Shown here: piece by piece, positions 31,113 to 46,141 of the stretch
How positions within the stretch are numbered: position 1 is the stretch's first letter
How the letters are laid out: each line of letters begins with the position of its first letter
Translations under genes and position numbers: made by a program
DNA from: Alphaproteobacteria bacterium
Lineage (GTDB): Bacteria > Pseudomonadota > Alphaproteobacteria > Reyranellales > Reyranellaceae
Assembly (NCBI GenBank): GCA_016870115.1
Contig: VGCH01000010.1
Span: 1-64,000, forward strand
Length of the DNA stretch: 64,000 nucleotides
Reading direction: 5' to 3'
The notes under the pieces: generated by a model
What the model saw: the letters and a program-made list of their open reading frames with translations, nothing else
The model's database searches: none
What the model was told of the DNA's origin: nothing

Positions 31113-32903
31113 TCAGAACGCTTCATCGGGTAGCGCGAAGACCGTGCGGCCCGCCGCGCGCAGCGGTCCAAGTTGCGCCAGCGCCGGCGGCAGGATCACC
31201 TCCGCGTAGAACCGCGCCGTCACCAGCTTGGCCTCGTTGAATGCCGCGTCGCCCTCGCGCGACGCCAGTCGGGCGAGCGCCGCCGCCGCACCGCGCGCCG
31301 ACACCCAGGCACCGAGCGCCGTGCCGCAGAGCCGCAGGTACGCGGCCGACCCTGCCATCGCGGCCCGCCCGTCACCCCGCACGTCGCCGGCCACCCAGCC
31401 CGTGGCCTCATCGAGGGCGTTCGCCGCAGCTTCGAGACCGGTCGCGACGGCCGCGATGTCGTCGCCCGCCAGCGTCGCGAGCCTCGAGTGTTCGGCACGC
31501 ATCTCGGCGACGAGCGCGCGCATCGCCTCGCCGCCGTCGCGCGAGATCTTGCGACCCACCAGATCGCGCGCTTGGATGCCGTTGGTGCCCTCGTAGATCG
31601 GCAGGATTCGGGCATCGCGCAGATGCTGGGCGGCGCCGGTCTCCTCAACGAACCCCATGCCACCGTGGATCTGCACGCCGAGCGAGGCGATCTCGTTGCC
31701 GAGGTCCGTGAACCACGCCTTCACGATCGGGATCAGAAGGTCGACCCGCGTCTGGGTTTCCTTGCGTGTCGCGGCATCGGGATGACGCAGCGCCGTGTCG
31801 ATCTGCGCGGCCGCGTAGTAGCCGAGGCCACGCATCGCCTCGATCTGGGCGCGCATGGTCATCAGCATGCGCCGCACATCGGCGTGCCGGACGATCGCGA
31901 CCGGGTGGGGGGCCGCACTCGCGTCGTCTTTCGATTGCACGCGCTGGCGGGCGAAGGCGGCGGCCTGCTGGTAGGCCCGCTCGGCGATGGCGAGGCCCTG
32001 CACGCCCACGGCGAGGCGGGCGTTGTTCATCATGGTGAACATGTACGAGAGGCCTCGGCCTTCCTCGCCCACGAGATAGCCGACCGCTCCCCCGTCGTCG
32101 CCGTAGCTCATCACGCAAGTCGGGCTCGCATGGATGCCGAGCTTGTGCTCCAGCGACACGCAGCGAAGGTCGTTGCGCTTGCCCGGCTTGCCGTCCGCGC
32201 CGACCAGGAGCTTGGGCACGATGAACAGCGAAATGCCGCGCACGCCGGCCGGCGCGTCGGGTGTGCGGGCCAGCACCAGATGCACGATGTTCTCGGCCAT
32301 GTCGTGCTCGCCGTAGGTGATGAAGATCTTCTGCCCGGAGATCAGGTAGTGGTCGCCCTGCCGCACCGCCTTCGACTTCAGTTGGCCGAGGTCCGAACCG
32401 GCCTGCGGCTCGGTGAGGTTCATGGTGCCGGTCCAGTCGCCAGCGATCATGCGTGGCAGATAAGTCGCCTTCTGTTCCGGTGAGCCGTGATGCTGGATAG
32501 CGTCGATCGCGCCCTGATTCAGAAGCAGGACCAGCCCGAAGCCCATGTTCGCCGACTGCCACATCTCCTGTACGCCGGTCGCGAGGAGCCATGGCATGCC
32601 CTGGCCGCCGAACTCGGGGTCGAAGGGAAGCGAGTTCCAGCCGCCCGTCACGAATTCCTTGTAGATGGCGGCGAAGCCGGGCGCCGTGCGCACCACCCCG
32701 TTCTCCAGCCTCGCGCCCACCTTGTCGCCGTCGCGGTTGAGCGGCGCCAGTCCATTGCCGGCGAGCTTGGCGGCCTCTTCCAGGACCGCGTCGATCATGT
32801 CCTCGCCGGCATGCTCGTAACCGGGCAGGGCGGCGACACCCGCCAGCCCCGCGATCTCTCGGAGCGCGAAGCGCATGTCGGCAAGCGGGGCGGCGTAGGT
32901 CAT
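31113..32903 (-). CDS. Acyl-CoA dehydrogenase, long DmdC-like family
   Basis: This 596-residue flavoenzyme is longer than the usual 380-residue acyl-CoA dehydrogenase. It fits the family with an extra C-terminal domain, which includes 3-methylmercaptopropionyl-CoA dehydrogenase DmdC. Visible motifs are MNLTEPQAGSDL (FAD and substrate contact), FTMMNNARLAVG, and ILPIYEGTNGIQ with the glutamate expected to act as catalytic base. The ATG has a GGAGGAA ribosome-binding site. It is divergent from a crotonase-fold gene. The real substrate cannot be told from sequence; a medium- or long-chain acyl-CoA is equally possible. Confidence 0.88.
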   Translation of the reverse strand: MTYAAPLADMRFALREIAGLAGVAALPGYEHAGEDMIDAVLEEAAKLAGNGLAPLNRDGDKVGARLENGVVRTAPGFAAIYKEFVTGGWNSLPFDPEFGGQGMPWLLATGVQEMWQSANMGFGLVLLLNQGAIDAIQHHGSPEQKATYLPRMIAGDWTGTMNLTEPQAGSDLGQLKSKAVRQGDHYLISGQKIFITYGEHDMAENIVHLVLARTPDAPAGVRGISLFIVPKLLVGADGKPGKRNDLRCVSLEHKLGIHASPTCVMSYGDDGGAVGYLVGEEGRGLSYMFTMMNNARLAVGVQGLAIAERAYQQAAAFARQRVQSKDDASAAPHPVAIVRHADVRRMLMTMRAQIEAMRGLGYYAAAQIDTALRHPDAATRKETQTRVDLLIPIVKAWFTDLGNEIASLGVQIHGGMGFVEETGAAQHLRDARILPIYEGTNGIQARDLVGRKISRDGGEAMRALVAEMRAEHSRLATLAGDDIAAVATGLEAAANALDEATGWVAGDVRGDGRAAMAGSAAYLRLCGTALGAWVSARGAAAALARLASREGDAAFNEAKLVTARFYAEVILPPALAQLGPLRAAGRTVFALPDEAF

Positions 32904-32995: not shown

Positions 32996-33772
32996 ATGGC
33001 CGATTCCATCCTTCTCGCGATAGCGGGGCCCCGCGCGACCATCACGCTGAACGATCCCGACAAGCACAATCGGCTGGATCCCGCCGGACTCGCGGACCTG
33101 CGTCGCGCGGTTGAGGCGGTGGACGCCAACCCGGAGGTTCGCGTCACGGTCATCACCGGGGCGGGCGAGAAGACCTTCTGTTCCGGATACGACCTGGGTG
33201 CCATCTCCTCGGACAGCAAGGCGGCCGACCGGCCGGCCTCTGACGATGGCTTTGAGCAGGTGATGGATCGCATCGAGGCGATGCGCATGCCGACGATCGC
33301 CGCGTTGAATGGCGGGGTCTATGGCGGGGCGACGGATCTGGCGCTGGCGTGCGATTTCAGGTTGGGGGTGCGCGGCATGCGCTTCTTCATGCCGGCCGCG
33401 CGGTTCGGGCTGCACTACTATCCGGGCGGTCTGCGTCGCTACACCCAGAAGGTTGGCCCCAGCTTCGCCAAGCGCGCGTTCCTCTTGTCGGAGGATTTCG
33501 ACGACGAGGCGCTGCTGCGGATCGGCTACATCGACTGGCTGGTCGACCGCGCCGAGTTCGCCGCGCGGATCGACGCTTTGGCCACGCGCCTCGCGGGCCT
33601 TGCCCCGCTCTCCATGGTCAACATGAAGCGGGCGATTGAGCAGTACGCCCAGGCTGATCCCGACGTCGCTTCCATCCGGGCCAATATCCGCGCCTGCGCC
33701 GGTTCGGACGATTTGCGAGAGGGTCTCGCGGCGCTGCGCGAGCGCCGTCCCCCGAGGTTCCGGGGCGCATGA
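32996..33772 (+). CDS. Enoyl-CoA hydratase/isomerase (crotonase-fold) family protein
   Basis: The 258-residue product has a crotonase fold: the oxyanion-hole segment FCSGYDLGAIS near residue 62, and GGVYGGATDLALACDF near residue 105. In classical hydratases two glutamates add water across the double bond. Here the first aligned position is Asp (ATDLA) and the second is Ala (MPAARFG). A standard hydratase activity is therefore doubtful, and isomerase, hydrolase or decarboxylase chemistry is possible. The start is ATG 32996. Its stop overlaps the next start in ATGA, so it is coupled to the signalling genes that follow. Confidence 0.85.
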   Translation: MADSILLAIAGPRATITLNDPDKHNRLDPAGLADLRRAVEAVDANPEVRVTVITGAGEKTFCSGYDLGAISSDSKAADRPASDDGFEQVMDRIEAMRMPTIAALNGGVYGGATDLALACDFRLGVRGMRFFMPAARFGLHYYPGGLRRYTQKVGPSFAKRAFLLSEDFDDEALLRIGYIDWLVDRAEFAARIDALATRLAGLAPLSMVNMKRAIEQYAQADPDVASIRANIRACAGSDDLREGLAALRERRPPRFRGA

Positions 33773-34704
33773 GGGCGCGCACGGTCGTTCTTGCGGCGCT
33801 GGGTCTTGCGCTCGCGCTGCCGGCGTCGGCCCAACAACTCGACTTCAAGCGGTCGAGCCGCAGTGGCGACGATCTCCTGTCCTACAAGTGGCGCGACCAC
33901 GAGCGCCGCGAACACAGCCTCGCCTTCACCATCACGAAGGAGGAGATCCGGAAAGCCGAGAGCTCCTTTATGGAATTCAGCCTCGACGGAATGTGGCGTT
34001 TGGTCGAGGCGGGAATTCGCGACGAGGTCGCGAAGTTCGGCCAAAGCGCCGAAGTGAAGTTCACGCGCACGGCCGACGGCATCAGCTGGAACATCGGCGC
34101 GCGCGATCGGGCGAGCGTCGATACTCTGATGGCCCGGGCGCAAGCCCGCCACGAGCGGACCCAGAGCGAGTATCTGAAGCGACACCAGCGGCGCGTCTAT
34201 GCTGGTCGGTTGATCGCGGTGGACTACGCGGCCGCGACCACGGCCTTGCGCGATCCGTTGCGCGCGGTGCCGCGCGCCCTGGGCGATGTCCGCGGGATCG
34301 TCGGCAACGACCGTGCCCGCGCGGCGCTTGCGCTGTCGTTCTTCCAGTCGATCCCCTACGCTCTGCTTGAGGACAAGGTCCGCAAGGGTGGGGACTTCCT
34401 TCCGGGGCCCGCTTTGCTTGCCCAGAATCGCGGCGATTGCGATAGCAAGGCCGTGGCGTTGGCCGCCGTGCTCCGCGCCTTCACGCCGTCGCGCAAGCTC
34501 GCGATGATCGTGATGCCGGGCCACGCCGTATTGGGAATCGATCTCGACGCGCAACAGGGCGATCAGGTGGTGCGCGGTGCCAACCGGAACTGGGTAGCGC
34601 TCGAGGCGGCGGGGCCGGGGCTCTTGTCTCCAGGCCGCGTGGGAACCGATACCGCGAAGCTTCTGGCCGCTGGTCGCGGCGTCGAAGTCTGGCCGCTCAA
34701 CTGA
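33769..34704 (+). CDS. Exported transglutaminase-like (papain-fold) protein
   Basis: The 311-residue product begins with a clear signal peptide ending ALPASA, with cleavage near residue 21, so it should act in the periplasm. The C-terminal half has RGDCDSKAVALAAVLRA with Cys224 and PGHAVLGI with His252. This spacing fits the catalytic Cys-His of bacterial transglutaminase-like peptidases. The middle is charged and has no recognised domain. The gene overlaps both neighbours (ATGA on each side, or nearly so), which places it firmly in the crotonase-cyclase-kinase operon. A cell-wall or protein-processing role is a guess. Confidence 0.7.
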   Translation: MRARTVVLAALGLALALPASAQQLDFKRSSRSGDDLLSYKWRDHERREHSLAFTITKEEIRKAESSFMEFSLDGMWRLVEAGIRDEVAKFGQSAEVKFTRTADGISWNIGARDRASVDTLMARAQARHERTQSEYLKRHQRRVYAGRLIAVDYAAATTALRDPLRAVPRALGDVRGIVGNDRARAALALSFFQSIPYALLEDKVRKGGDFLPGPALLAQNRGDCDSKAVALAAVLRAFTPSRKLAMIVMPGHAVLGIDLDAQQGDQVVRGANRNWVALEAAGPGLLSPGRVGTDTAKLLAAGRGVEVWPLN

Positions 34705-35606
34705 TGGTCACGCAGCCGACCACACGGCGGCTCGCCGCCATGCTTCATGCCGATGTCGCAGGATTCACGCGCATGATGGAAGGCGCCCAGACCATGACGT
34801 TCCGCCATCTGAAGGCGGCGCAAATCAATGTCTGGCGGCCGGCGATCGAAACGGGGGGCGGTCGGCTGGTCGGCACGGCGGGCGATGCGATGCTGGCGGA
34901 GTTTTCGTCGGCGCTCGCGGCGGTGCGGACCGCGATCGACATCCAGGATCGCATGGGCCAGTTCAACGCCGCCCTCGATGCGGGCCAGCGCATGCTGTTT
35001 CGGGTCGGCGTTCATCTCGGCGAGGTGATCGTCGATCCCGAGGACGACAATATTTTCGGCGAGAGCGTCAATCTGTGCGCTCGTATCCAGGCGCTCGCCG
35101 AGCCGGGCGGCGTCGCGGTTTCGCGGACGGTGCGCGATATGGTCGAACTGGGGCCAGGTCATGCCTTCGCCGAAGGGGGAACGCACCAGGTCAAGAACGT
35201 GAGCCGGCCGGTCGAGCTGTTTCATGTGCGTTCCGTGGCAGTGGCGCCGCCGGTGGCGACCCGGGCTGCGCATCCGGTCCGGGGCGGCTGGCGCCTGGAG
35301 GGCGCGGACTCGTCTGGGAATCAGTTCCGGCTTGAGATCGCGGCCGCGGCGCTGACGGCCGCGTCGGGCGGGCTGGTGCTGGGGCGGGCCGCCGACCAGT
35401 GCGATCTCTGTCTGTCCCATCCGACGGTGTCGCGTCGCCACGCCTGCTTGGGTCTGCGGGGTGAGACCTTGTCGGTCGCCGATCTCGGCTCGACCAACGG
35501 AATCTCGGTCGATGGCCGACTGCTGCCAGACGACCAGCCCGTTGACTTGGCCGATGGCAGTCGTCTGCGCGTCGGAGACGTCGAGTTCGTGGTCCGTCGA
35601 ACCTAG
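34704..35606 (+). CDS. Class III nucleotide cyclase domain fused to an FHA domain
   Basis: This 300-residue soluble protein has a cyclase homology domain at about 8-175 with both metal-binding aspartates (Asp17 in DVAGFT, Asp61 in GDAMLAEF) and the Asn123/Arg127 pair in ESVNLCARIQ. The base-selecting lysine usually found before the second aspartate is Gly57, so substrate choice or activity may be altered. An FHA domain occupies about 222-297 with Gly227-Arg228, SRRH at 243-246 and Asn265-Gly266, the residues that bind phosphothreonine. The next gene encodes a Ser/Thr kinase, a natural source of such a mark. The start overlaps the previous stop by one base. Confidence 0.85.
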   Translation: MVTQPTTRRLAAMLHADVAGFTRMMEGAQTMTFRHLKAAQINVWRPAIETGGGRLVGTAGDAMLAEFSSALAAVRTAIDIQDRMGQFNAALDAGQRMLFRVGVHLGEVIVDPEDDNIFGESVNLCARIQALAEPGGVAVSRTVRDMVELGPGHAFAEGGTHQVKNVSRPVELFHVRSVAVAPPVATRAAHPVRGGWRLEGADSSGNQFRLEIAAAALTAASGGLVLGRAADQCDLCLSHPTVSRRHACLGLRGETLSVADLGSTNGISVDGRLLPDDQPVDLADGSRLRVGDVEFVVRRT

Positions 35607-35648
35607 ATTCGTTGCGATGGCCCGAGCGGGATGGGATGATCCCGCGCC

Positions 35649-37928
35649 ATGGCCGACTCCTCCGAAACTCCCTCGCGCGCGCCCGCCACGGGGTCGGTCA
35701 ACCTGATCGCGCTGCGAACCGGGCACCGGATCGGCCGCTACGAGGTCGTGTCGGTCCTGGGACAGGGCGGTTTCGGCATTACCTATCTGGCGCGCGATAC
35801 CCAGCTCGGCCGCGATGTCGCGATCAAGGAATACCTGCCGATGGGGCTGGCGATCCGGCATGGCGCCACCGAGGTGCTGCCGGGCTCGACCGAGGCGGCG
35901 CGGGACTTCCTCTGGGGGCGGGAACGGTTCGTCGCCGAGGGCCAGACGCTTGCCAGTCTCAGCGACGCGCCGGCGATCGTGCGGGTGTTCGACTTCCTCG
36001 AGGTGAACGGGACGGCCTACCTCGTGATGGCGCTGGTGGCAGGCGAGACGCTGGACCAGCGCATCCGGGCCGGCGGGCCGATCGACGCGGGCACGATGGC
36101 GCGCGTTCTATTCCCGCTCTTGGACGGGCTGGAGCGCGTCCACGCCGCGGGCTTCCTGCATCGCGACATCAAGCCCGCGAACATCATCCTGGGCGACGAC
36201 GACCGGCCGACGCTGATCGATTTCGGCGCCTCGCGCGCGGCGATGGCCGGACGAACGACCGCGCTCACCGCAGTGTTCACGCCGGGCTACGCCGCCCCTG
36301 AGCAGATGAACACGGCCAAGCAAGGCCCATGGTCGGACATCTACGGCGTCGCGGCGACGTTCTATCACGCGCTCACCGGCGGTCCGCCGCTCAACGCCTT
36401 CGATCGCGCGCTCGACGATGAATACGTATCGGCGTTGGAGTACGCCGGGTCCGGCTGGCCACAGGCGGTGTTGGCCGGGCTGGATGCGGGTCTTGCTGTC
36501 CGCGCCAACGAGCGGCCGCAGTCGATTGCGGCCTGGCGCACGATGTTGCGCGCCGCGCCCCCGGCACCGGCGGCCGCGACGGTCGTGGTCCGACCTCCCA
36601 TCGCCCCCGCGCCAGCACCCACACGACCCTCCGTGGGCCGCGCGCCGCCGCCCGCCCGACCCGCACCGCTGCCCGCGCCTCCGCCGCAGGCAGCGCCAGC
36701 GGGTGGTCGTGCGGGCCTGTGGATCGCTGTCGCCGCGGTCGTCGCGGTCTTGGGCGGTGGCGGCGCCTACCTCGCGACACAGGGCGAGCGCGCGCCGTCG
36801 CCAGTCGCGGCAGTGCCGGCACCTGACAATCGCGCCGCCGAAGAGGCGCGTAGAGCCGAGGAGGCACGCCGGGCGGCCGACGCCCAGCGTGCGGACGAGG
36901 CGAGGCGCGCCGAAGCGAACCGCGCGGCAGCCGAGGCGGCGCGTCGGCAAGAGGAGGAACGCAAGGCCGACGAAGTCCGCCGCGCCGAGGAGACCCGCAA
37001 AGCGCAAGAAGCACGCCGGGCTGAAGAGACACGAAAGGCGGAGGAAGCCCGTCGGGCCGAGGAGACACGGAAGGCTGAGGAAGCTCGCCTGGCCGAGGAG
37101 GCCCGCCGCTCCGAGGAAGCGCGCCAGGCGGAGGCCACGCGCCGAGCCGAGCAGGAGGCCGCCGCTCGCCAGCGCGCGGAGGAAGAGGGCCGCCGCCGCG
37201 CGGCCGAGCAGGCCGAGGCCGGGCTGCGCGTCAGCCAACCGGATCGGCAGCGCCTTCAGGTGGCGCTGAGTTCGCTCGGCCACAATACCGGCAGCACGGA
37301 CGGGGCCTTTGGAGGCCGCACGCGAGAGATGATCGCCGCGTGGCAGCGCGCCAACGGCGCGCCGCCGACGGGCTTTCTCTCCGGTGAGCAGGTCGCGCTG
37401 GCGCTGCGTCAGGGAGCCGCCGCCGTCACCCGCTTCGATGACGAGCAGAAGAAGCGCGAGGCCGAGGAGAAGGCCAAGGCCGAGGAGAGAGCAAAGGCCG
37501 AGGAACGCGCCCGAGCGGCGGCCGCGGCGCCCCGCCCCGCGCCGACGCCACCCGCCGCGCCCGCGCCACCCGAACCCGCGGCCGCCGGCCCGCCGGCGGC
37601 GGGGGTCGATGGGCGCTGGTCCGGTTCGTACAGCTGCACCTCTGGGGGACCGGGCGGCGCGCTGCTGGTCGCGTTCGATGTCTCTCTGAACGGCGGGCAG
37701 GGCGCATGGTCGAGCCTCGGTGCCACCCGGGCTTCAGGCGGAACCAGCACGCTACGACTGCGAGTGACCGGCACGCGCGTCGAGTTCACACGCACGATCG
37801 TGGAGGGCGGGCAAAGCCGCACAGCGACCCTCGTCGGTCGGGTGCAGGGCACGAGCATCTCGGCGCAGGGCGACGAAACGAACGGCGCTCGTGGCTGCGT
37901 GGTGTCCTTGCAGAAAGCGGCGCGCTGA
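35649..37928 (+). CDS. Transmembrane Ser/Thr protein kinase with coiled coil and peptidoglycan-binding domain
   Basis: This 759-residue protein starts with an intact Hanks-type kinase domain (about 30-300): glycine loop GQGGFG, Lys60, HRDIKPAN with Asp173, DFG at 191-193, APE at 216-218. A Pro/Ala-rich linker leads to one membrane span near 354-378. The outside part has a very long Ala/Arg/Glu coiled coil (about 397-527), a peptidoglycan_binding_1-like domain (about 531-588), a second charged Pro-rich stretch, and a beta-rich C-terminal domain of about 105 residues. The layout suggests a receptor that senses the cell wall and signals by phosphorylation. The FHA-cyclase just upstream is a likely partner. 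Confidence 0.88.
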   Translation: MADSSETPSRAPATGSVNLIALRTGHRIGRYEVVSVLGQGGFGITYLARDTQLGRDVAIKEYLPMGLAIRHGATEVLPGSTEAARDFLWGRERFVAEGQTLASLSDAPAIVRVFDFLEVNGTAYLVMALVAGETLDQRIRAGGPIDAGTMARVLFPLLDGLERVHAAGFLHRDIKPANIILGDDDRPTLIDFGASRAAMAGRTTALTAVFTPGYAAPEQMNTAKQGPWSDIYGVAATFYHALTGGPPLNAFDRALDDEYVSALEYAGSGWPQAVLAGLDAGLAVRANERPQSIAAWRTMLRAAPPAPAAATVVVRPPIAPAPAPTRPSVGRAPPPARPAPLPAPPPQAAPAGGRAGLWIAVAAVVAVLGGGGAYLATQGERAPSPVAAVPAPDNRAAEEARRAEEARRAADAQRADEARRAEANRAAAEAARRQEEERKADEVRRAEETRKAQEARRAEETRKAEEARRAEETRKAEEARLAEEARRSEEARQAEATRRAEQEAAARQRAEEEGRRRAAEQAEAGLRVSQPDRQRLQVALSSLGHNTGSTDGAFGGRTREMIAAWQRANGAPPTGFLSGEQVALALRQGAAAVTRFDDEQKKREAEEKAKAEERAKAEERARAAAAAPRPAPTPPAAPAPPEPAAAGPPAAGVDGRWSGSYSCTSGGPGGALLVAFDVSLNGGQGAWSSLGATRASGGTSTLRLRVTGTRVEFTRTIVEGGQSRTATLVGRVQGTSISAQGDETNGARGCVVSLQKAAR
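36838..37230 (+). repeat. Low-complexity repeat coding for an Ala/Arg/Glu coiled coil
   Basis: Within the kinase gene this segment repeats variants of a short unit coding for (K/R)AEEARRAEET. Units are imperfect and vary in period. Such repeats commonly expand and contract by slippage. The protein segment is predicted to be a long charged coiled coil or single alpha helix outside the membrane. Confidence 0.8.
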
Positions 37929-37931
37929 GCC

Positions 37932-38714
37932 TCAAACCCGCCGGTGGAGGCGCCGGTCGATCGCCAGCATCAGCGCATTGAGCGTGACCGCGAGGACGGA
38001 CACGATCAGCACCACCGCCATGATGCGCCGGACATCGTGGACCTCGATTGAGGTCATCAGCAGGTGTCCGATCCCGCGCTGAGAGGCGAAGAGTTCGCCA
38101 ATCATGACGCCGAGCAGGGTGAGGGAGAGCCCGATACGCAGCCCGGAGAAAATCTCGGGGATGGTGGCGGGAACAAGGATGTGCCGGGCCGTCTGCAGGG
38201 GTCCGAGATTCATGGTGGCCGCGGTCCGGAGCCAGGTCGGATTGACGTTGCGCACCGCGTTCATCGCGAAGATCGCGACGGGGATCACGCCGTGCAACGC
38301 GCCGAATGCGATCTTGGCGTTAAGGCCGATACCGAAGAACAGCAGGACGACGGGGTAGAGCGTCACCTTGGGGATCGAATAGAGCGCCACCAGCACGGGC
38401 TCGGCGACCTCGCCCGACAGGCGATGCCCGCCCAGCGCCACGCCGATGCCGACACCCCCGGTCACGGCGATCAGCAAAGCCCACAGGAACGCCGACATGG
38501 TCTCGCGGAAATGGGGCCAGTAGCGCGGCCCCGACAGCAGGTGCCAGGTCTCGCGAAGCGTCGCCGGCAGTGACGCGATGGCGCTGTCGCCGGCCAGATA
38601 GTGCAATCCTTGCCACAGCGCCGCGAGTGAGAGCACCGTGAGTGCGACGCCGCCCCAAGCCTCCAGACGGTCCTGCCGCTCCGCGGCGGCGAGCGCGGAT
38701 GCGCCGTCGGCCAT
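37932..38714 (-). CDS. NitT/TauT-type ABC transporter permease (second permease)
   Basis: The 260-residue protein has about six hydrophobic segments and the BPD_transp_1 fold with the EAA-like loop (GPLQTARHILVPATIPEIFSGL). The start is ATG 38714, one base after the stop of the other permease gene. The two permeases differ clearly, so the channel is probably a heterodimer. The family imports nitrate, sulfonates, pyrimidine precursors and similar small molecules. The stop codon lies just beyond the convergent kinase gene. Confidence 0.88.
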   Translation of the reverse strand: MADGASALAAAERQDRLEAWGGVALTVLSLAALWQGLHYLAGDSAIASLPATLRETWHLLSGPRYWPHFRETMSAFLWALLIAVTGGVGIGVALGGHRLSGEVAEPVLVALYSIPKVTLYPVVLLFFGIGLNAKIAFGALHGVIPVAIFAMNAVRNVNPTWLRTAATMNLGPLQTARHILVPATIPEIFSGLRIGLSLTLLGVMIGELFASQRGIGHLLMTSIEVHDVRRIMAVVLIVSVLAVTLNALMLAIDRRLHRRV

Positions 38715-38715
38715 C

Positions 38716-39465
38716 TCAGCGGCTCCGCCGTTGGATCAGGCGCTGTTCAACCGTGTGCAGCGTCAGGTTCACACTGGCCACCAGCAGAAGCACGAACAGG
38801 ATCAGCCCATACATCGAGCGTGCGTCGAAATTGTCGTAGGCGAAAGCGATGGCGTGGCCGATGCCCTTTGTGCTGAGGATGAATTCGCCGGCGATCACGC
38901 CGATGAACGAATAGGCGATGGCGAGCTTCACGCCGGCAAACAGGTGCGGAAGCGCCGCCGGCAGGCGGACGCGCCAGAGCTCGTCGGTGCCCGTCAGGCG
39001 CATCACTTGTGCTGTCTTACCCAGAACGCGCGGCACGCGATCGAGCCCGTTCATCGTGGCGACGATCATGGCCACGACTCCGAACATGACCGCGAGCGCG
39101 ATCAGCGGACCCGGCCCCAGTCCGAACAGCACGATCAGCAGGGGGTAGAACGCGAAATGTGGGATGGCGTAGTAGGCGCCGAGGAACGGATCGAGGGCGC
39201 GGCGCAGGCGCGGCCGACCATGGATCGCGAATCCCACCAGGAAACCGCCGGCCAAGCTTACCATGATGGCGATGGCGACGACGCTGAAGGTTTGCGCCAT
39301 GTCCTCGTTCAGCTCCCCCGACGCCACCGCGCGCCAGCCGCCCGCCGCCATCTCGGTTGGTGGGATGATGGCGGTGCGTGGGAGCCATCCTGCGCGGCAC
39401 GCCCCCTCCAGTCCGCCGATGGCCGCGGCGAGCAGCGCCAGACGGATCCAGGCTGCCTTCGTCAT
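38716..39465 (-). CDS. NitT/TauT-type ABC transporter permease (first permease)
   Basis: I place the start at ATG 39465 (MTKAAWIRLALLA), giving 249 residues. The frame is open upstream, but that part overlaps the ATPase gene and is not membrane-like. The protein has about six hydrophobic spans and the EAA-loop region with LTGTDELWRVRLPAALPHLFAG. The start overlaps the ATPase stop in ATGA. It should form the inner-membrane channel with the other permease. Confidence 0.88.
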   Translation of the reverse strand: MTKAAWIRLALLAAAIGGLEGACRAGWLPRTAIIPPTEMAAGGWRAVASGELNEDMAQTFSVVAIAIMVSLAGGFLVGFAIHGRPRLRRALDPFLGAYYAIPHFAFYPLLIVLFGLGPGPLIALAVMFGVVAMIVATMNGLDRVPRVLGKTAQVMRLTGTDELWRVRLPAALPHLFAGVKLAIAYSFIGVIAGEFILSTKGIGHAIAFAYDNFDARSMYGLILFVLLLVASVNLTLHTVEQRLIQRRSR

Positions 39466-40271
39466 CGGCCCGCGCCCTCCCGTGCCTGGCCCAGCGCCTT
39501 GATGGATTCGCCGCGGATGGAAGCCCAGAGCCGGGCGCTCACGGCGCCGAAATTCGGTCGGGCGGCGAGCGTCGAGTCGCGGTCGCGCGGCCAGCCGGTC
39601 TGCACCGTCTCGATCCAGACTCCGGGTCGCGCGGACATCACGCCGATTCGGTCGGACAGGAGGTTGGCTTCGTCCAGCGCGTGGGTAATGAGCATGACCG
39701 TAGCGCCGGTTTCTCGCCACAGCCGGAGAAGCTCATCGCCCATCAGCAGGCGCGTCTGTTGGTCCAGCGCCCCGAAAGGCTCATCCAACAGAATCAGGCG
39801 CGGGCGCAGCACCAGCGTTCGCGCGATGCAGACGCGCTGGCGCATGCCCCCGGAGAGCTGCGCGGGGTACGCGCGGGCAAAATCGGCGAGGCCCATGAAG
39901 CCCAGCGCATAGTCGACCCGGCGGCGCACTTCGGCGGGATCGGTGCCGGCCCGGCGCAACCCGAAAGCCACGTTGTCCTCAACGGTCAGCCAGGGAAACG
40001 ACGCGTCTTCCTGGAACACGACACCGATGCCCTCGGGGACGCGACCGAGCACAGGCTGGCCCTCGAAGGTGACCGTCCCGGCGCTCGGCAGCGCGAGGCC
40101 CGCCACGACGTCGAGTAGGGTGCTCTTGCCGCACCCCGACGGCCCCACCACGCTCAGGAACTCGCCGCGCCTCAGATCAAGGTCGAGTGGCCCCAGAGCG
40201 TGCAGCGGCGGGCGGCCGGCGCGCGCGGGATAGATGCGCGTGACGCCGCGAAGCGAGGCGTGAACGTCCAC
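39462..40271 (-). CDS. NitT/TauT-type ABC transporter ATP-binding protein
   Basis: The 269-residue ATPase has Walker A GPSGCGKST near residue 44, the signature LSGGMRQR near 143, Walker B LILLDEPFG, and the H-loop LITHALDEA. It powers uptake by the two permeases encoded downstream. The gene starts three bases after the stop of the substrate-binding protein. An extra C-terminal stretch of about 35 residues follows the catalytic core. Confidence 0.93.
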   Translation of the reverse strand: MDVHASLRGVTRIYPARAGRPPLHALGPLDLDLRRGEFLSVVGPSGCGKSTLLDVVAGLALPSAGTVTFEGQPVLGRVPEGIGVVFQEDASFPWLTVEDNVAFGLRRAGTDPAEVRRRVDYALGFMGLADFARAYPAQLSGGMRQRVCIARTLVLRPRLILLDEPFGALDQQTRLLMGDELLRLWRETGATVMLITHALDEANLLSDRIGVMSARPGVWIETVQTGWPRDRDSTLAARPNFGAVSARLWASIRGESIKALGQAREGAGR

Positions 40272-40274
40272 CGC

Positions 40275-41264
40275 TCAGAGCTGCGGGCGCTTGGCCGCCG
40301 GCATGAAGCGCAGATCCATGGACGCCTTCCAGTCGATCGGCAGCTTCAGGATACCAATCGAGTCCAGTGCCTGCGCCATATTGTTCATCGCCTTCATGTC
40401 GAACGTGTCGGCGTTCCACCATTTGGGATTGATGGAGTTGACGCCTTTCAGGGCCATCGCCATCACGTCGGCGGGCTGGTCGTAGACCTTGGCGGTGATG
40501 CGCGCGGCTTCCGCCTGGTTGGCGTACATGAACTCCACGCCGCGCTTGCGGATGTCGATCACCTTCTGGAGCTTGCCGCCCTGCTTCTCGATGTTGTCTA
40601 CCGTCGCGATGCCCACTGTCTGAGTGAAGGTCGGCAGCTTCTTCGAGGCCCAGTCGACGATCTGGTACTTCTTGCCGTCCTTGATGCGGCGGGCATAGAC
40701 CGGCTCCGAGATCTGCACTATGTCGACCTGGTTGTTCTCGAGCGCCACGACGCCGCCCGCGATGTCGCCGGTCGCGACCATTTTCACGTCCTCGGGCTTC
40801 AGCCCGCATTCCCGCAGCAACGTGAGGTTCATGCTCTCGGTGACCGAGCGGGGGCGGGTGAAGCCCAGGCGCTTGCCCTTGAGGTCGGGACAGTCGGTCA
40901 TCTTCTCGCCAGTGCGGGAGATGTAGTAGCCGCCTTCGCCCTCGGTCCCCACGTTGATGATGCGGATCGGGATGCCCTCCTTGAGGGCGGCGAGGGCAGC
41001 GGGCAACGCCACCTCCCCGTAGATCGTGTTGCCCGCCATCATGTTGCGCACGCTGGTCGAGCCGCCCTTGGACGAAATCGGCTGTTCGATCGCCAGCCCG
41101 GCTTTCTTGAACCAGCCCTTGTCGATCGCGACGGCGTAGGGGACGCCGTAGAGCAAGGCGCCATAGTGCGTGACAACGAGTTCGTCGGTCGCGCTGGCCG
41201 GCATCGCCGCCGTCGCCAGCGTCGCGGCCACACCCAGGGCGGCCAGTTTCCGCATCGCGTTCAT
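40275..41264 (-). CDS. NitT/TauT-type ABC transporter periplasmic substrate-binding protein
   Basis: The start is ATG 41264 (MNAMRKLAALG), giving 329 residues. A signal peptide of about 25 residues ends PASA. The mature part has the NMT1/SsuA-type periplasmic fold, with DIVQISEPVYARRI and FTQTVGIATVD. The ligand cannot be named from sequence. The gene is first in a four-gene unit and is divergent from an isocitrate-lyase-family gene. That neighbour hints at a small organic acid or phosphonate-like ligand, but this is only inference. Confidence 0.85.
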   Translation of the reverse strand: MNAMRKLAALGVAATLATAAMPASATDELVVTHYGALLYGVPYAVAIDKGWFKKAGLAIEQPISSKGGSTSVRNMMAGNTIYGEVALPAALAALKEGIPIRIINVGTEGEGGYYISRTGEKMTDCPDLKGKRLGFTRPRSVTESMNLTLLRECGLKPEDVKMVATGDIAGGVVALENNQVDIVQISEPVYARRIKDGKKYQIVDWASKKLPTFTQTVGIATVDNIEKQGGKLQKVIDIRKRGVEFMYANQAEAARITAKVYDQPADVMAMALKGVNSINPKWWNADTFDMKAMNNMAQALDSIGILKLPIDWKASMDLRFMPAAKRPQL

Positions 41265-41351: not shown

Positions 41352-42236
41352 ATGGCGGGAAACGGCAAGGCAGCGTCGCTGCGCAGAAAACTGGCCGCCG
41401 GGGAGTTTATTCTGGCTCCGGGCGTGTTTGACGGCATCTCGGCCCGGGTCGCCGACCGGATGGGGTTCCCGGCGCTCTATATGACCGGCTATGGCGCCAC
41501 TGCTTCGGCTCTCGGACTGCCCGATGCCGGGCTCGCGACCTACGCTGACATGGTGGGCCGCGCCGAGATGATCTGCTCGGTCACCGAGACACCGCTGATC
41601 GCAGATGCCGATACGGGCTATGGCGGCCTGCTCAATGTGCGGCGCACGGTGCAGGGCTACGAGGCCGCGGGCGTCGCGGCGATCCAGATCGAGGATCAGG
41701 AGATGCCCAAGAAGTGCGGCCATACGCCGGGCCGTCGCGTCGTGGCGGCAGAGGAGATGGTCACCAAACTCAAGGTCGCGGTCGAGGCGCGTCGGCACGA
41801 GGAGACGCTGATCGTGGCGCGCACCGACGCCCGCACGGGGCTCGGCCTCGACGAGGCGCTGCGCCGTGCGCGCCTCTACGAGGAGGCGGGGGCCGACGTG
41901 ATCTTCGTGGAGTCGCCCGAGAGCGAGGCGGAGCTTGAGCGGATCGGGCGCGAGGTCAACAAGCCTCTGCTCGCTAACATGGTGGAGTTCGGCAAGACGC
42001 CGCGCGTGGCGGCGCCGACCTTGCAGAAATGGGGCTTCGACATCGCGATCTATCCCAGTCTCGGCTTCTCTGTGGCGGCCGAAGCGATGCGCCAGGCCTG
42101 GGTTCATCTGAAGGAGGCCGGCACCAGCATCGGAATGAACGTGCCGCAATATGCCGGTGGCGACGGGGTGCGTTCGATGCACGAGCTGATGGGCTTTCCC
42201 GAGGTGTGGGACTTCGAGAAGCGTTGGGGCCTGTGA
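41352..42236 (+). CDS. Isocitrate lyase/PEP mutase superfamily enzyme
   Basis: This 294-residue protein is the size of 2-methylisocitrate lyase, oxaloacetate decarboxylase or carboxyphosphonoenolpyruvate mutase. The metal site has ADADTGYG near residue 84 and the lyase motif KKCGH at 120-124, whose cysteine is the usual general acid of C-C lyases. A lyase acting on a 2-alkylmalate-type acid is therefore more likely than a phosphonate mutase. The gene is divergent from the ABC importer. A GTG start inside its stop codon couples it to a small membrane protein. Confidence 0.85.
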   Translation: MAGNGKAASLRRKLAAGEFILAPGVFDGISARVADRMGFPALYMTGYGATASALGLPDAGLATYADMVGRAEMICSVTETPLIADADTGYGGLLNVRRTVQGYEAAGVAAIQIEDQEMPKKCGHTPGRRVVAAEEMVTKLKVAVEARRHEETLIVARTDARTGLGLDEALRRARLYEEAGADVIFVESPESEAELERIGREVNKPLLANMVEFGKTPRVAAPTLQKWGFDIAIYPSLGFSVAAEAMRQAWVHLKEAGTSIGMNVPQYAGGDGVRSMHELMGFPEVWDFEKRWGL

Positions 42237-42535
42237 AGCCGCTGCTGGAGATTCTGGCGCGCTTGCCCGCCCGCGCCTGGCTACAGGGCGTGGGCGCCCT
42301 GCTCGCGGTCGTGGTGCTGGCGGTTGTTGGCTTCGCGGCGCTGGCTGGCGTCGCGCTCGTCGGACTGGTGTTGGTGCTTGGCATCAAGGCTCGGCGCTGG
42401 CTGGCCAGCTTGTTCGGCGTGGCGCCGCCGCCACCCCCGTCCGCCGCCGAGCCGGCGCGGCCGCGGGTGGGGCGGGGACCGGTCTCCGACGTCGAGTTCG
42501 AGATGGTCGACAAGAAGGACAGCCCGCCGCGATGA
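42233..42535 (+). CDS. Small membrane protein of unknown function
   Basis: This 100-residue protein starts at GTG 42233, which overlaps the stop of the lyase gene in GTGA, and ends in ATGA overlap with the next hydrolase gene. It has a hydrophobic region of about 35 residues (20-53), long enough for one or two spans. A Pro-rich linker and an acidic tail ending VEFEMVDKKDSPPR follow. I do not recognise a family. The tight overlaps on both sides argue that it is a real gene. Confidence 0.7.
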   Translation: MKPLLEILARLPARAWLQGVGALLAVVVLAVVGFAALAGVALVGLVLVLGIKARRWLASLFGVAPPPPPSAAEPARPRVGRGPVSDVEFEMVDKKDSPPR

Positions 42536-43245: not shown

Positions 43246-44682
43246 CTAGACCCGCACTACCTTGCCGGGGTTCATGCGGTTGGCCGGGTCGAGCGCCCGC
43301 TTGATCGCCCGCATCACGTCGAGCTCGGTCCTCGACCGGTAGTGCGCGAGCTCGTCGATCTTGAGGCGTCCGATGCCGTGCTCGGCCGAGATCGAGCCGC
43401 CGGCGTCGACCACAAGATCGTAGATCGCGCCGGAGATGCGCTCGGCGTGGGCCATGAAGCGCGGCTTGTCCCAACCCTCGGGCGACTGGCAATTGAAGTG
43501 CAGGTTGCCGTCGCCGACATGGCCGAACGGCACGGGCCGGCAGCCCGGGAGCGTCTCGTGCATCGCCGCCAACCCGCGCTCGATGAAGGCCGGCAGGCGC
43601 GACACAGCGACCGAGATGTCGTGCTTGATCGAGGGACCCTCACGCTTCTGGGCCTCGGAGTGGTTCTCGCGCAGCGCCCACAGCGCCTTGGCCTGGCCGT
43701 CGCTGCTCGCGATCGCGGCGTCGAGCACCAGTCCCGTCTCCATCGCCGCACCGAGATGCGCCTCCATCGCCGGGGCAAGTCCGCTGCCGTTGGCGCCGGG
43801 ACGCGGCGCGCGCGACGACGACCACTCCATCAGCACATACCAATCATGCCGCCCGGCCAACGGATCGGCGGCGCCAGGGATGTGGCGCAACACAAGGTCG
43901 ATGCCCTGGCGGCCCATCAGCTCGCAGGAGGTGACGTTGTCTTCGCTGGCGGCGTGGGCGTCACTCAGGAGTTCGACGGCGGCGGCGGGCGAGGCCACGG
44001 CGATCCAGGCGACCGCGCGATCCCGCGGCGCGGGCCACAGCCGAAGGACCGCGCGGGTCACGATGCCGAGCGTTCCCTCCGCGCCGACATAGAGGTCGCG
44101 CAGGTCGTAGCCGGTATTGTCCTTCTTGAGCGCGCGCAGGCCGTTCCAGATCTCGCCCGAGGGCAGCACGACCTCGAGGCCCAGCACGAGCGCCCGGGCG
44201 TTGCCATAGTGCAGCACCTGCACGCCGCCGGCGTTGGTCGACAGGTTGCCGCCGATGGTGCAGCTGCCCTCTGCCGCGAGACTGAGCGGGAACAACCGGT
44301 CGTGGGCCGCCGCGGTCTCCTGGATCGTGCGCAGCACGCAGCCCGCCTCGACGGTCATGGAGTAGCCCAGCGGGTCGACTTCCAGCACGCGGTTCATGCG
44401 CTGCAGCGACAGCACGATCTCCCGACCGGTTTCGTGTGGCATGCCTCCGCCCACGAGGCCCGTATTGCCACCCTGCGGCACGATCGCGACACCGGCATCG
44501 GCGCAGGCGCGGACCACGGCCGCGACTTCCTCGGTCGAACCGGGACGCACCACGGCGAGCGCCGTGCCGAGATAGTTGTCGCGCCAGTCGGTGACGTAGC
44601 CGCGCTGATCGGCCGGATCGCTGACCAGCCCGCGCGCGCCTACGATGGCGGCGAGCCGATCGAGGAAGGCCGCGTCAGACAC
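43246..44682 (-). CDS. FAD-linked 2-hydroxyacid dehydrogenase (GlcD/D2HGDH type), second copy
   Basis: This 478-residue flavoprotein has an FAD-binding PCMH domain (about 35-215) with PQGGNTGLVGG and GGNLSTNAGG, and a C-terminal oxidase domain with the metal ligand motif GHVGDGNLHFN and ISAEHGIG. Enzymes of this family oxidise D-lactate, glycolate or D-2-hydroxyglutarate. It is closely related along its length to the gene just upstream (44675-46141), with a 8-base overlap between them, so the pair is a tandem duplication. Confidence 0.9.
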   Translation of the reverse strand: MSDAAFLDRLAAIVGARGLVSDPADQRGYVTDWRDNYLGTALAVVRPGSTEEVAAVVRACADAGVAIVPQGGNTGLVGGGMPHETGREIVLSLQRMNRVLEVDPLGYSMTVEAGCVLRTIQETAAAHDRLFPLSLAAEGSCTIGGNLSTNAGGVQVLHYGNARALVLGLEVVLPSGEIWNGLRALKKDNTGYDLRDLYVGAEGTLGIVTRAVLRLWPAPRDRAVAWIAVASPAAAVELLSDAHAASEDNVTSCELMGRQGIDLVLRHIPGAADPLAGRHDWYVLMEWSSSRAPRPGANGSGLAPAMEAHLGAAMETGLVLDAAIASSDGQAKALWALRENHSEAQKREGPSIKHDISVAVSRLPAFIERGLAAMHETLPGCRPVPFGHVGDGNLHFNCQSPEGWDKPRFMAHAERISGAIYDLVVDAGGSISAEHGIGRLKIDELAHYRSRTELDVMRAIKRALDPANRMNPGKVVRV

Positions 44683-46141
44683 GCAGCACTTTCCCCGGAT
44701 TCATGATGTTGCGCGGATCGAGCGCCCGCTTGATCGAGCGCATCGTGTCGAGCTCGATGCGGCTACGGTAGTGCTCCAGCTCGCCGACCTTGTCGCTGCC
44801 GATGCCATGCTCGGCAGAGATCGACCCGGAGAAGTCGCGGATCAGGTCGTTGATCGCGCGCGTGATCGCCGGCGAATACTGGTGCAGCGTCTGGCGATCC
44901 ATGCCGACCGGCGCCATGAACGAGAAGTGCAGGTTGCCATCGCCGATATGGCCGAGCGGGTAGGGCCGGATCGAGGGCAGGATCTCCTTGGCGGCGGCGA
45001 TGCCCTTGGTCACGAACTCGGGGATGCGCGAGGTCGCCACCGACATGTCGTAGCTGAGGCCCGGGCCTTCGGCGCGCGAGGCGGGTGCGACGGACTCGCG
45101 GATCGTCCACATGTTCCGCGCTTGCGCGGCGTTCTGCGCGATCGTGGCGTCGAGCACGCGGCCCGCCTCCATCTGGTCGGCGAGGAACTGCTCCATCTTC
45201 TCGGACATGCCCTCGGCACCGTCGGCGCGGGGACGCGACGAGGACCACTCCAGCAGCAGGAACCAATCTGTCTCGGCCTTGAGCGGGTCCTGTGTCCCCG
45301 GAATGTGGCGCAACACCATGTCGGTGCCGGCCCGGCTCATCAGCTCGCAGGAGCCGACATTGTCCTCGCTGGCGGCGTGCGCCTCGGAGAGAATCTCGAC
45401 AGCGGCTTGCGGGTCGCGCACCGCGAGCCAGGCGGTGCACACATCCTTGGGCGCCGGCCAGAGCTTCAGCACGGCCTTGGTGATGATGCCGAGCGTCCCC
45501 TCGGCGCCCATGAAGAGATGCTTCAGGTCGTAGCCGGTATTGTCCTTCTTGAGCGCGCGCAGCCCGTTCCAGATCTCGCCGTTGGGCAGCACCACCTCGA
45601 GCCCCATCACGAGGTTGCGCGCGTTGCCATAGCGCAGCACCTGCACGCCACCGGCATTGGTCGAGAGGTTGCCGCCGATCATGCAGGAGCCCTGGGCGCC
45701 GAGGCTGAGCGGGAAGAACCGATCATGCGCGGCCGCCGTCTCCTGCAGCGTCTGCAGCACGCAGCCCGCCTCGACGGTCATCGAGTAGCCGACCGGATCG
45801 ACCGCCAGCACGCGGTTCATGCGCTGCACCGAGAGCACGATGCCGGTGTGCGTGGCATAGGGAGTGGCGCCGCCCATCAGACCGGTGTTGCCGGCCTGCG
45901 GCACGATCGCGACGCCGGCTTCGTGGCAGAGCCGAACGACGGCGGCCACTTCCTCGGTCGTGCCGGGGCGCACCACGACGGCGGCATGGCCCTTCAGCGA
46001 GCCGCGCCAGTCGGTGACGAACGGGTCCTTCGCCGCGTCATCCAGGATCAGGCCCTTGTCGCCCACCACCTCGCGCAGCTTCGCAAGCAGCGCCGGGGTC
46101 ACGGGCTCGGTCGGGATCGTCGGAATGGCGGTGTCAGGCAT
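44675..46141 (-). CDS. FAD-linked 2-hydroxyacid dehydrogenase (GlcD/D2HGDH type), first copy
   Basis: The 488-residue product has the same two-domain plan as its downstream neighbour: PQAGNTGLMGG and GGNLSTNAGG in the FAD domain, GHIGDGNLHFS and ISAEHGIG in the C-terminal domain. Differences cluster in the stretch before GHIGDG, which shapes the substrate pocket, so the copies may prefer different acids. The gene leads a two-gene unit; 21 bases separate it from the sua5 stop upstream. Confidence 0.9.
   Translation of the reverse strand: MPDTAIPTIPTEPVTPALLAKLREVVGDKGLILDDAAKDPFVTDWRGSLKGHAAVVVRPGTTEEVAAVVRLCHEAGVAIVPQAGNTGLMGGATPYATHTGIVLSVQRMNRVLAVDPVGYSMTVEAGCVLQTLQETAAAHDRFFPLSLGAQGSCMIGGNLSTNAGGVQVLRYGNARNLVMGLEVVLPNGEIWNGLRALKKDNTGYDLKHLFMGAEGTLGIITKAVLKLWPAPKDVCTAWLAVRDPQAAVEILSEAHAASEDNVGSCELMSRAGTDMVLRHIPGTQDPLKAETDWFLLLEWSSSRPRADGAEGMSEKMEQFLADQMEAGRVLDATIAQNAAQARNMWTIRESVAPASRAEGPGLSYDMSVATSRIPEFVTKGIAAAKEILPSIRPYPLGHIGDGNLHFSFMAPVGMDRQTLHQYSPAITRAINDLIRDFSGSISAEHGIGSDKVGELEHYRSRIELDTMRSIKRALDPRNIMNPGKVLRV

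Follow-up and report, generated by a model that had tools for sequence, protein, structure and literature searches.

The closest described relatives of this locus are gene clusters that encode a Ser/Thr protein kinase (STPK) beside a protein with an FHA domain. FHA genes cluster with STPK genes in M. tuberculosis (PMC1262709), and in the Mycobacterium clusters PknA/PknB with FhaA/FhaB and PknF with Rv1747 the FHA protein is likewise encoded next to a transmembrane STPK. Coupling of an STPK to a class III cyclase, as seen here, also has precedents in Myxococcus Pkn2 (PMC1262709) and the TOMM kinase/cyclase (TIGR03903). The locus that we describe, from an alphaproteobacterium of the Reyranellaceae, is a variant of the known STPK-FHA partner clusters, from whose mycobacterial members it is set apart by an FHA domain that shares one protein with a class III cyclase; an STPK and such an FHA protein are encoded together in 51 genomes. 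Unlike in the Pkn2 and TOMM fusions, kinase and cyclase are separate proteins that would be joined, if at all, through the FHA domain, and TIGR03903, with a cut-off of 706 bits, is matched at just 25 and 71. Whereas PknB has a peptidoglycan-facing PASTA sensor, the kinases here carry a PG_binding_1 domain or a different, K1-type ectodomain; the window kinase has no PASTA match, and its best NCBIfam score, 148 bits, falls short of the PASTA-kinase cut-off of 450.

The cyclase domain is homologous across 160–170 residues to those of LipJ (Rv1900c) and PDB 3mr7, although LipJ has a hydrolase domain where the window protein carries FHA. Pycsar cyclases (PycC) share the class III fold, with the FHA fusion setting the window protein apart; PycC was matched at 22 bits (PADLOC, weak), and the module contains no Pycsar effector gene. 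A defence role was considered and rejected because the PADLOC kinase matches reflect the common kinase domain and the PycC matches are weak. Our literature search found no description of this gene set among the papers searched, in line with an earlier note on this DNA that knew of no described system with this exact set.

The window, meaning the whole stretch of 64,000 nucleotides that was analysed, contains a same-strand quartet encoding a crotonase, a transglutaminase/LapG-fold protein (TGL), a class III cyclase-FHA protein and a transmembrane Ser/Thr kinase, and the operon extends past position 37928:

31113–32903, minus strand: acyl-CoA dehydrogenase, divergent upstream neighbour, conserved in relatives
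32996–33772, plus strand: crotonase-fold protein (Pfam ECH_1, E=1.8e-38)
33769–34704, plus strand: TGL, putative exported transglutaminase/LapG-fold Cys-His protein (alignment, AlphaFold2, Foldseek)
34704–35606, plus strand: soluble cyclase-FHA protein, class III cyclase at residues ~7–175 (Guanylate_cyc, 6.6e-10) and FHA at ~220–298 (3.2e-17)
35649–37928, plus strand: Ser/Thr kinase of K2 type, transmembrane segment near residue 357 (Pkinase, 1e-32; PG_binding_1, 1.4e-10)
~37932–41260, minus strand: ABC transporter cassette that breaks up the operon here, encoding two permeases, an ATPase and an SsuA-type binding protein
~41352–42236, plus strand: PEP mutase/methylisocitrate lyase-like gene, an operon member in relatives
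42233–42535, plus strand: gene for a small membrane protein (100 aa), with which the conserved module ends

The crotonase and TGL genes overlap by 4 nt and the TGL and cyclase-FHA genes by 1 nt, with a 42-nt gap before the kinase, so the coordinates and junctions given in the earlier note (overlaps of a few bases, kinase after 42 bases) agree with the gene calls. Pfam scores lie well over the cut-off for crotonase, cyclase, FHA, kinase and PG_binding_1. Beyond the inverted ABC cassette the PEP-mutase-like and small membrane-protein genes resume, overlapping by 4 nt as in many relatives, where the two genes stand directly 3' of the module without an ABC cassette at that point. A search for sigma-70 promoter and terminator signals gave none above chance. 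Further downstream, 43246–44682 and 44675–46141 are an adjacent pair of one family, the first a GlcD-like FAD oxidase (NCBIfam), and this pair is kept 3' of the module in relatives.

Across the 76 genomes of the order that were compared, the operon proves real, order-wide and conserved, but the exact four-gene set is a local variant, the quartet not being fixed in relatives. Crotonase and a close kinase were each found in 71 genomes, TGL in 28, and cyclase-FHA, counting partial matches, in 72. On the contigs, crotonase is followed by cyclase-FHA in 66 genomes, with the kinase next in 51. The adjacency of families that the earlier note had proposed to look for elsewhere was therefore borne out for crotonase, cyclase-FHA and kinase (51 of the 71 crotonase-positive genomes) and not for TGL, which was not found in 48 of the 76. 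Nor do the four genes hold together as one coupled set: the complete quartet in the order proposed occurs in only 9 genomes, with 1 further genome rearranged. In annotated neighbourhoods the modular order is crotonase, optional TGL, cyclase-FHA, optional K1 with a glycine-zipper gene, optional K2, PEP-mutase-like gene and small membrane protein, with the acyl-CoA dehydrogenase divergent upstream.

Spacings in relatives are short and recurrent (−4 to 15 nt across loci; in many, cyclase and K1 are 13–15 nt apart), which supports an operon. The same spacings argue against an explanation by synteny only, in which the metabolic genes (crotonase, PEP-mutase-like, acyl-CoA dehydrogenase) would be transcribed together with the signalling genes near the ribosomal operon without acting jointly. 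The module region does adjoin that operon and its synteny is broad, with rplQ, the acyl-CoA dehydrogenase, the PEP-mutase-like gene and glcD-like genes syntenic in many of the same genomes; kinase and TGL are present in some loci and absent from others, and the window copy is broken by the ABC cassette, all of which fits a shared location without shared function. However, K1 and the glycine-zipper gene behind it occur together in 30 of 31 loci, with a single exception at a contig edge, and the pairing of kinase and FHA is improbable by chance. In the window genome, which has just 2 STPKs and 2 FHA domains, one kinase and one FHA adjoin here, the second STPK and second FHA lying elsewhere without such partners; by our own estimate, an FHA gene and a kinase gene would fall side by side among ~3,400 genes by chance in ~0.2–0.3% of cases, so that chance pairing is unlikely. 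On balance we regard synteny only as distinctly unlikely.

Membership of the module is nonetheless fluid. Lineages branching far from the main genus (G001 and genus g3) have crotonase-TGL-cyclase-FHA without a kinase, and genus g5 has crotonase-TGL-kinase-TGL-cyclase, with a kinase of a different lineage. In the three g5 loci (L038, L039, L040) the two TGL copies flank this separate-lineage kinase, and the cyclase-FHA that follows has a long Pro/Ala-rich linker. From these kinase-less and rearranged loci, entry, relocation or loss of a kinase appears to have happened more than once; with an unrooted tree, the direction of these changes is something that we infer. Altogether, the cyclase stands without an adjoining kinase in 13 of 49 annotated loci, some of those contigs being short. 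A linkage between TGL presence and kinase absence, suggested by raw counts, was dropped when independent tree pairs gave it no support (sign test median p 1).

The window kinase is catalytically complete as judged from its motifs, with glycine loop, VAIK, HRD, DFG and APE all present in its predicted cytoplasmic part. A single transmembrane segment near residue 357 leads into an Ala/Glu/Arg-rich coil, PG_binding_1 (530–580) and a C-terminal beta-barrel (~650–759), an arrangement that matches the coiled coil and cell-wall-binding domain previously described beyond the membrane. These PG-binding and beta-barrel parts are those of the K2 type, to which the window kinase is 38–47% identical across that region and with which it groups in the kinase-domain tree (support 99/95). 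The structure model of the K2 end region is moderate (pLDDT 74), and its fold matches are to an SltB3-like PG-binding part and an NHBA/TbpB-like beta-barrel (weak E-values). We considered the window kinase as a K1 orthologue and rejected this on its K2-like ectodomain and architecture, although an AU test on the kinase domain alone does not reject a K1 placement (p 0.098).

In relatives, K1 is the usual neighbour of the cyclase, and its periplasmic region differs and has no wall-binding domain. Because K1 usually holds that place and the window kinase is K2-like, a wall-binding sensor adjoining the cyclase is a local arrangement, and the proposal that a wall-binding kinase is the cyclase's partner does not carry over to most relatives. 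In one genome (G070, locus L146), K2 comes immediately after the cyclase. The glycine-zipper gene overlaps or closely trails K1 (L035:12280–12840 and relatives), and the window has neither. K1 ectodomains (for example, L035:10421–12292) have a C-terminal part that resembles, by eye, a degenerate staphylococcal-nuclease-type domain, with no Pfam match.

The FHA domain of the cyclase-FHA protein is, by its residues, phosphothreonine-competent: R228, S243, H246, T264, N265 and G266 are present, forming the GR, SxxH and NG motifs known for such domains (PMC1262709), and the R, S, R, H, T, N and G positions do not vary across the 39 module proteins and 20 paralogues compared (59 in total). The earlier suggestion that this FHA can read phosphothreonine and is joined to a nucleotide cyclase thus finds support in the invariant motif and the Pfam domains. 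Full-length matches to cyclase plus FHA were confined to this order among the matches listed (385 class genomes and 398 phylum genomes), all of which fall within the class, in a best-hit format that may overlook an FHA behind a long linker; ten candidate exceptions had no FHA of this kind. An apparent cyclase-kinase fusion in G020 (L032) was discarded as a joint reading frame created by assembly N runs.

Cyclase catalysis is likely retained, since the metal Asp pair and the Asn/Arg pair (D17, D61, N123 and R127, metal and transition-state residues) are kept in every copy with an aligned residue; Guanylate_cyc scores 39.3 bits against a cut-off of 21.9. The purine-selecting Lys is replaced. The window has Gly57 and Asn116 rather than Lys with Asp (adenylyl) or Glu (guanylyl), and among the 58 module and paralogue proteins in which the residue could be aligned, the Lys position holds G, N or H and in no case K or E, with Asn, Asp or Ser at the second position. 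These selector positions have been reviewed, and changing them alters or often lowers cyclase activity (PMC4215837). Such replacements would fit a domain that makes no cyclic nucleotide and instead binds nucleotide in a regulatory or scaffold role, FHA docking being the output. Against this stand the conserved catalytic pairs and the second-best PDB match, Rv1900c, which aligns Asn at the selector Lys position. Rv1900c is an active cyclase. We give a cyclase without catalysis little credence.

FHA and cyclase residues are intact with or without an adjoining kinase, so the FHA may read some other kinase, and the paralogous cyclase-FHA genes have a kinase neighbour in at most 2 of 20 cases, one of them L111. 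Together with the several kinases of this family encoded by many relatives, the unchanged FHA residues in kinase-less loci and in paralogues distant from kinases would suit a general reader of genome-wide threonine phosphorylation, for which the adjacent kinase is convenient rather than dedicated. With just 2 STPKs and 2 FHA domains in the window genome, and a kinase downstream in 51 genomes, we think this unlikely, although it deserves some weight. The window genome also encodes 1 PP2C phosphatase and 6 cNMP-binding domains, the latter possible candidate receptors. In G000, contig 11 (77180–81836), the sole PP2C_2 match lies a few kb from the genome's best class III cyclase match.

The TGL protein is predicted to have a LapG/BTLCP-like fold. 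LapG is a periplasmic cysteine protease that cleaves an adhesin (PMC3032545), and HvyA controls capsule (PMC4241560). TGL resembles both in its predicted fold, signal peptide and invariant Cys and His; in the AlphaFold2 model (pLDDT 89.9), LapG chains rank 1 and 4–7 of the Foldseek PDB matches (prob 1.00, with E only 4e-3 to 8e-3). It differs in an extra ~140-aa N-terminal region, in the absence of a Pfam match and in its third conserved residue, which is Glu279 rather than the Asp of the BTLCP triad; C224, H252 and Glu279 are all invariant in an alignment of 21 relatives. The module also has no LapD-like partner. Some relatives match Transglut_core weakly, and a sequence search against solved structures returned nothing credible. 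The family occurs in 18 of 277 genera sampled across the wider class, and a weak relative (33% over 120 residues) lies on a Moraxellaceae MAG contig (L031:8001–8360). As a marker of the module elsewhere TGL failed: near its 20 loci in other orders of the class, none of these cyclase, FHA, kinase and crotonase families is encoded. The notion of a periplasmic Cys-His effector therefore loses ground: adjacency is what ties TGL to kinase and cyclase, and it suggests an effector role only weakly.

The crotonase has Asp114 in all aligned relatives and mostly Ala, or else Pro, at position 134 (Ala134 in the window). These correspond to the two catalytic Glu positions of classical enoyl-CoA hydratases such as rat crotonase; with both replaced, the protein probably does not act as a standard hydratase. 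The case for linking it to the signalling genes is weak.

What the sequences show is how the genes are ordered and conserved, which domains they encode and that the key residues of kinase, FHA and cyclase are intact; on this footing, a relay from the kinase through FHA to the cyclase is plausible. The periplasmic region of the membrane STPK would act as sensor, through PG-binding and beta-barrel domains in the window genome, where peptidoglycan could be the signal. The kinase would phosphorylate itself or a partner on a cytoplasmic threonine, and as the FHA's partner it would offer the phosphothreonine on which the cyclase-FHA protein docks. Docking would shift the activity or location of the cyclase, which would make a cyclic nucleotide, and TGL, where present, would belong to the envelope side, perhaps as a protease or amidase with surface material as its target. 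In favour of this circuit we count the tight window junctions, the gene order in 66 and 51 genomes, the intact residues, the small inventory of STPKs and FHA domains, the g5 kinase of another lineage in the same module and the kinase beside the L111 paralogue, as well as the six cNMP-binding domains, the one PP2C and the M. tuberculosis precedent. Counted against it are the 13 of 49 kinase-less loci, the few paralogues with kinase neighbours, K2 in place of K1, the missing purine-selecting Lys and the broad synteny at the ribosomal operon. We therefore hold the chances about evenly balanced that this is an order-specific envelope-signalling operon running from kinase through FHA docking to a change in the cyclase. 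Adjacency is the whole of the support for the full four-gene circuit, for a signal from the cell wall and for an effector in the periplasm, and a phosphothreonine-gated cyclase that takes its input from an envelope-sensing kinase through FHA, makes an unusual or mixed cyclic nucleotide and has the exported LapG-like enzyme as output would be a long shot.

If the FHA-cyclase does read the kinase, the operon would link bacterial Ser/Thr phosphorylation directly to cyclic-nucleotide signalling, in a form conserved throughout one order, and the host genome's mere 2 kinases and 2 FHA domains make the circuit simple to test. A function would then also be at hand for a group of cyclases whose base-selecting residues are non-standard and for a periplasmic transglutaminase-fold family unrecognised by Pfam.
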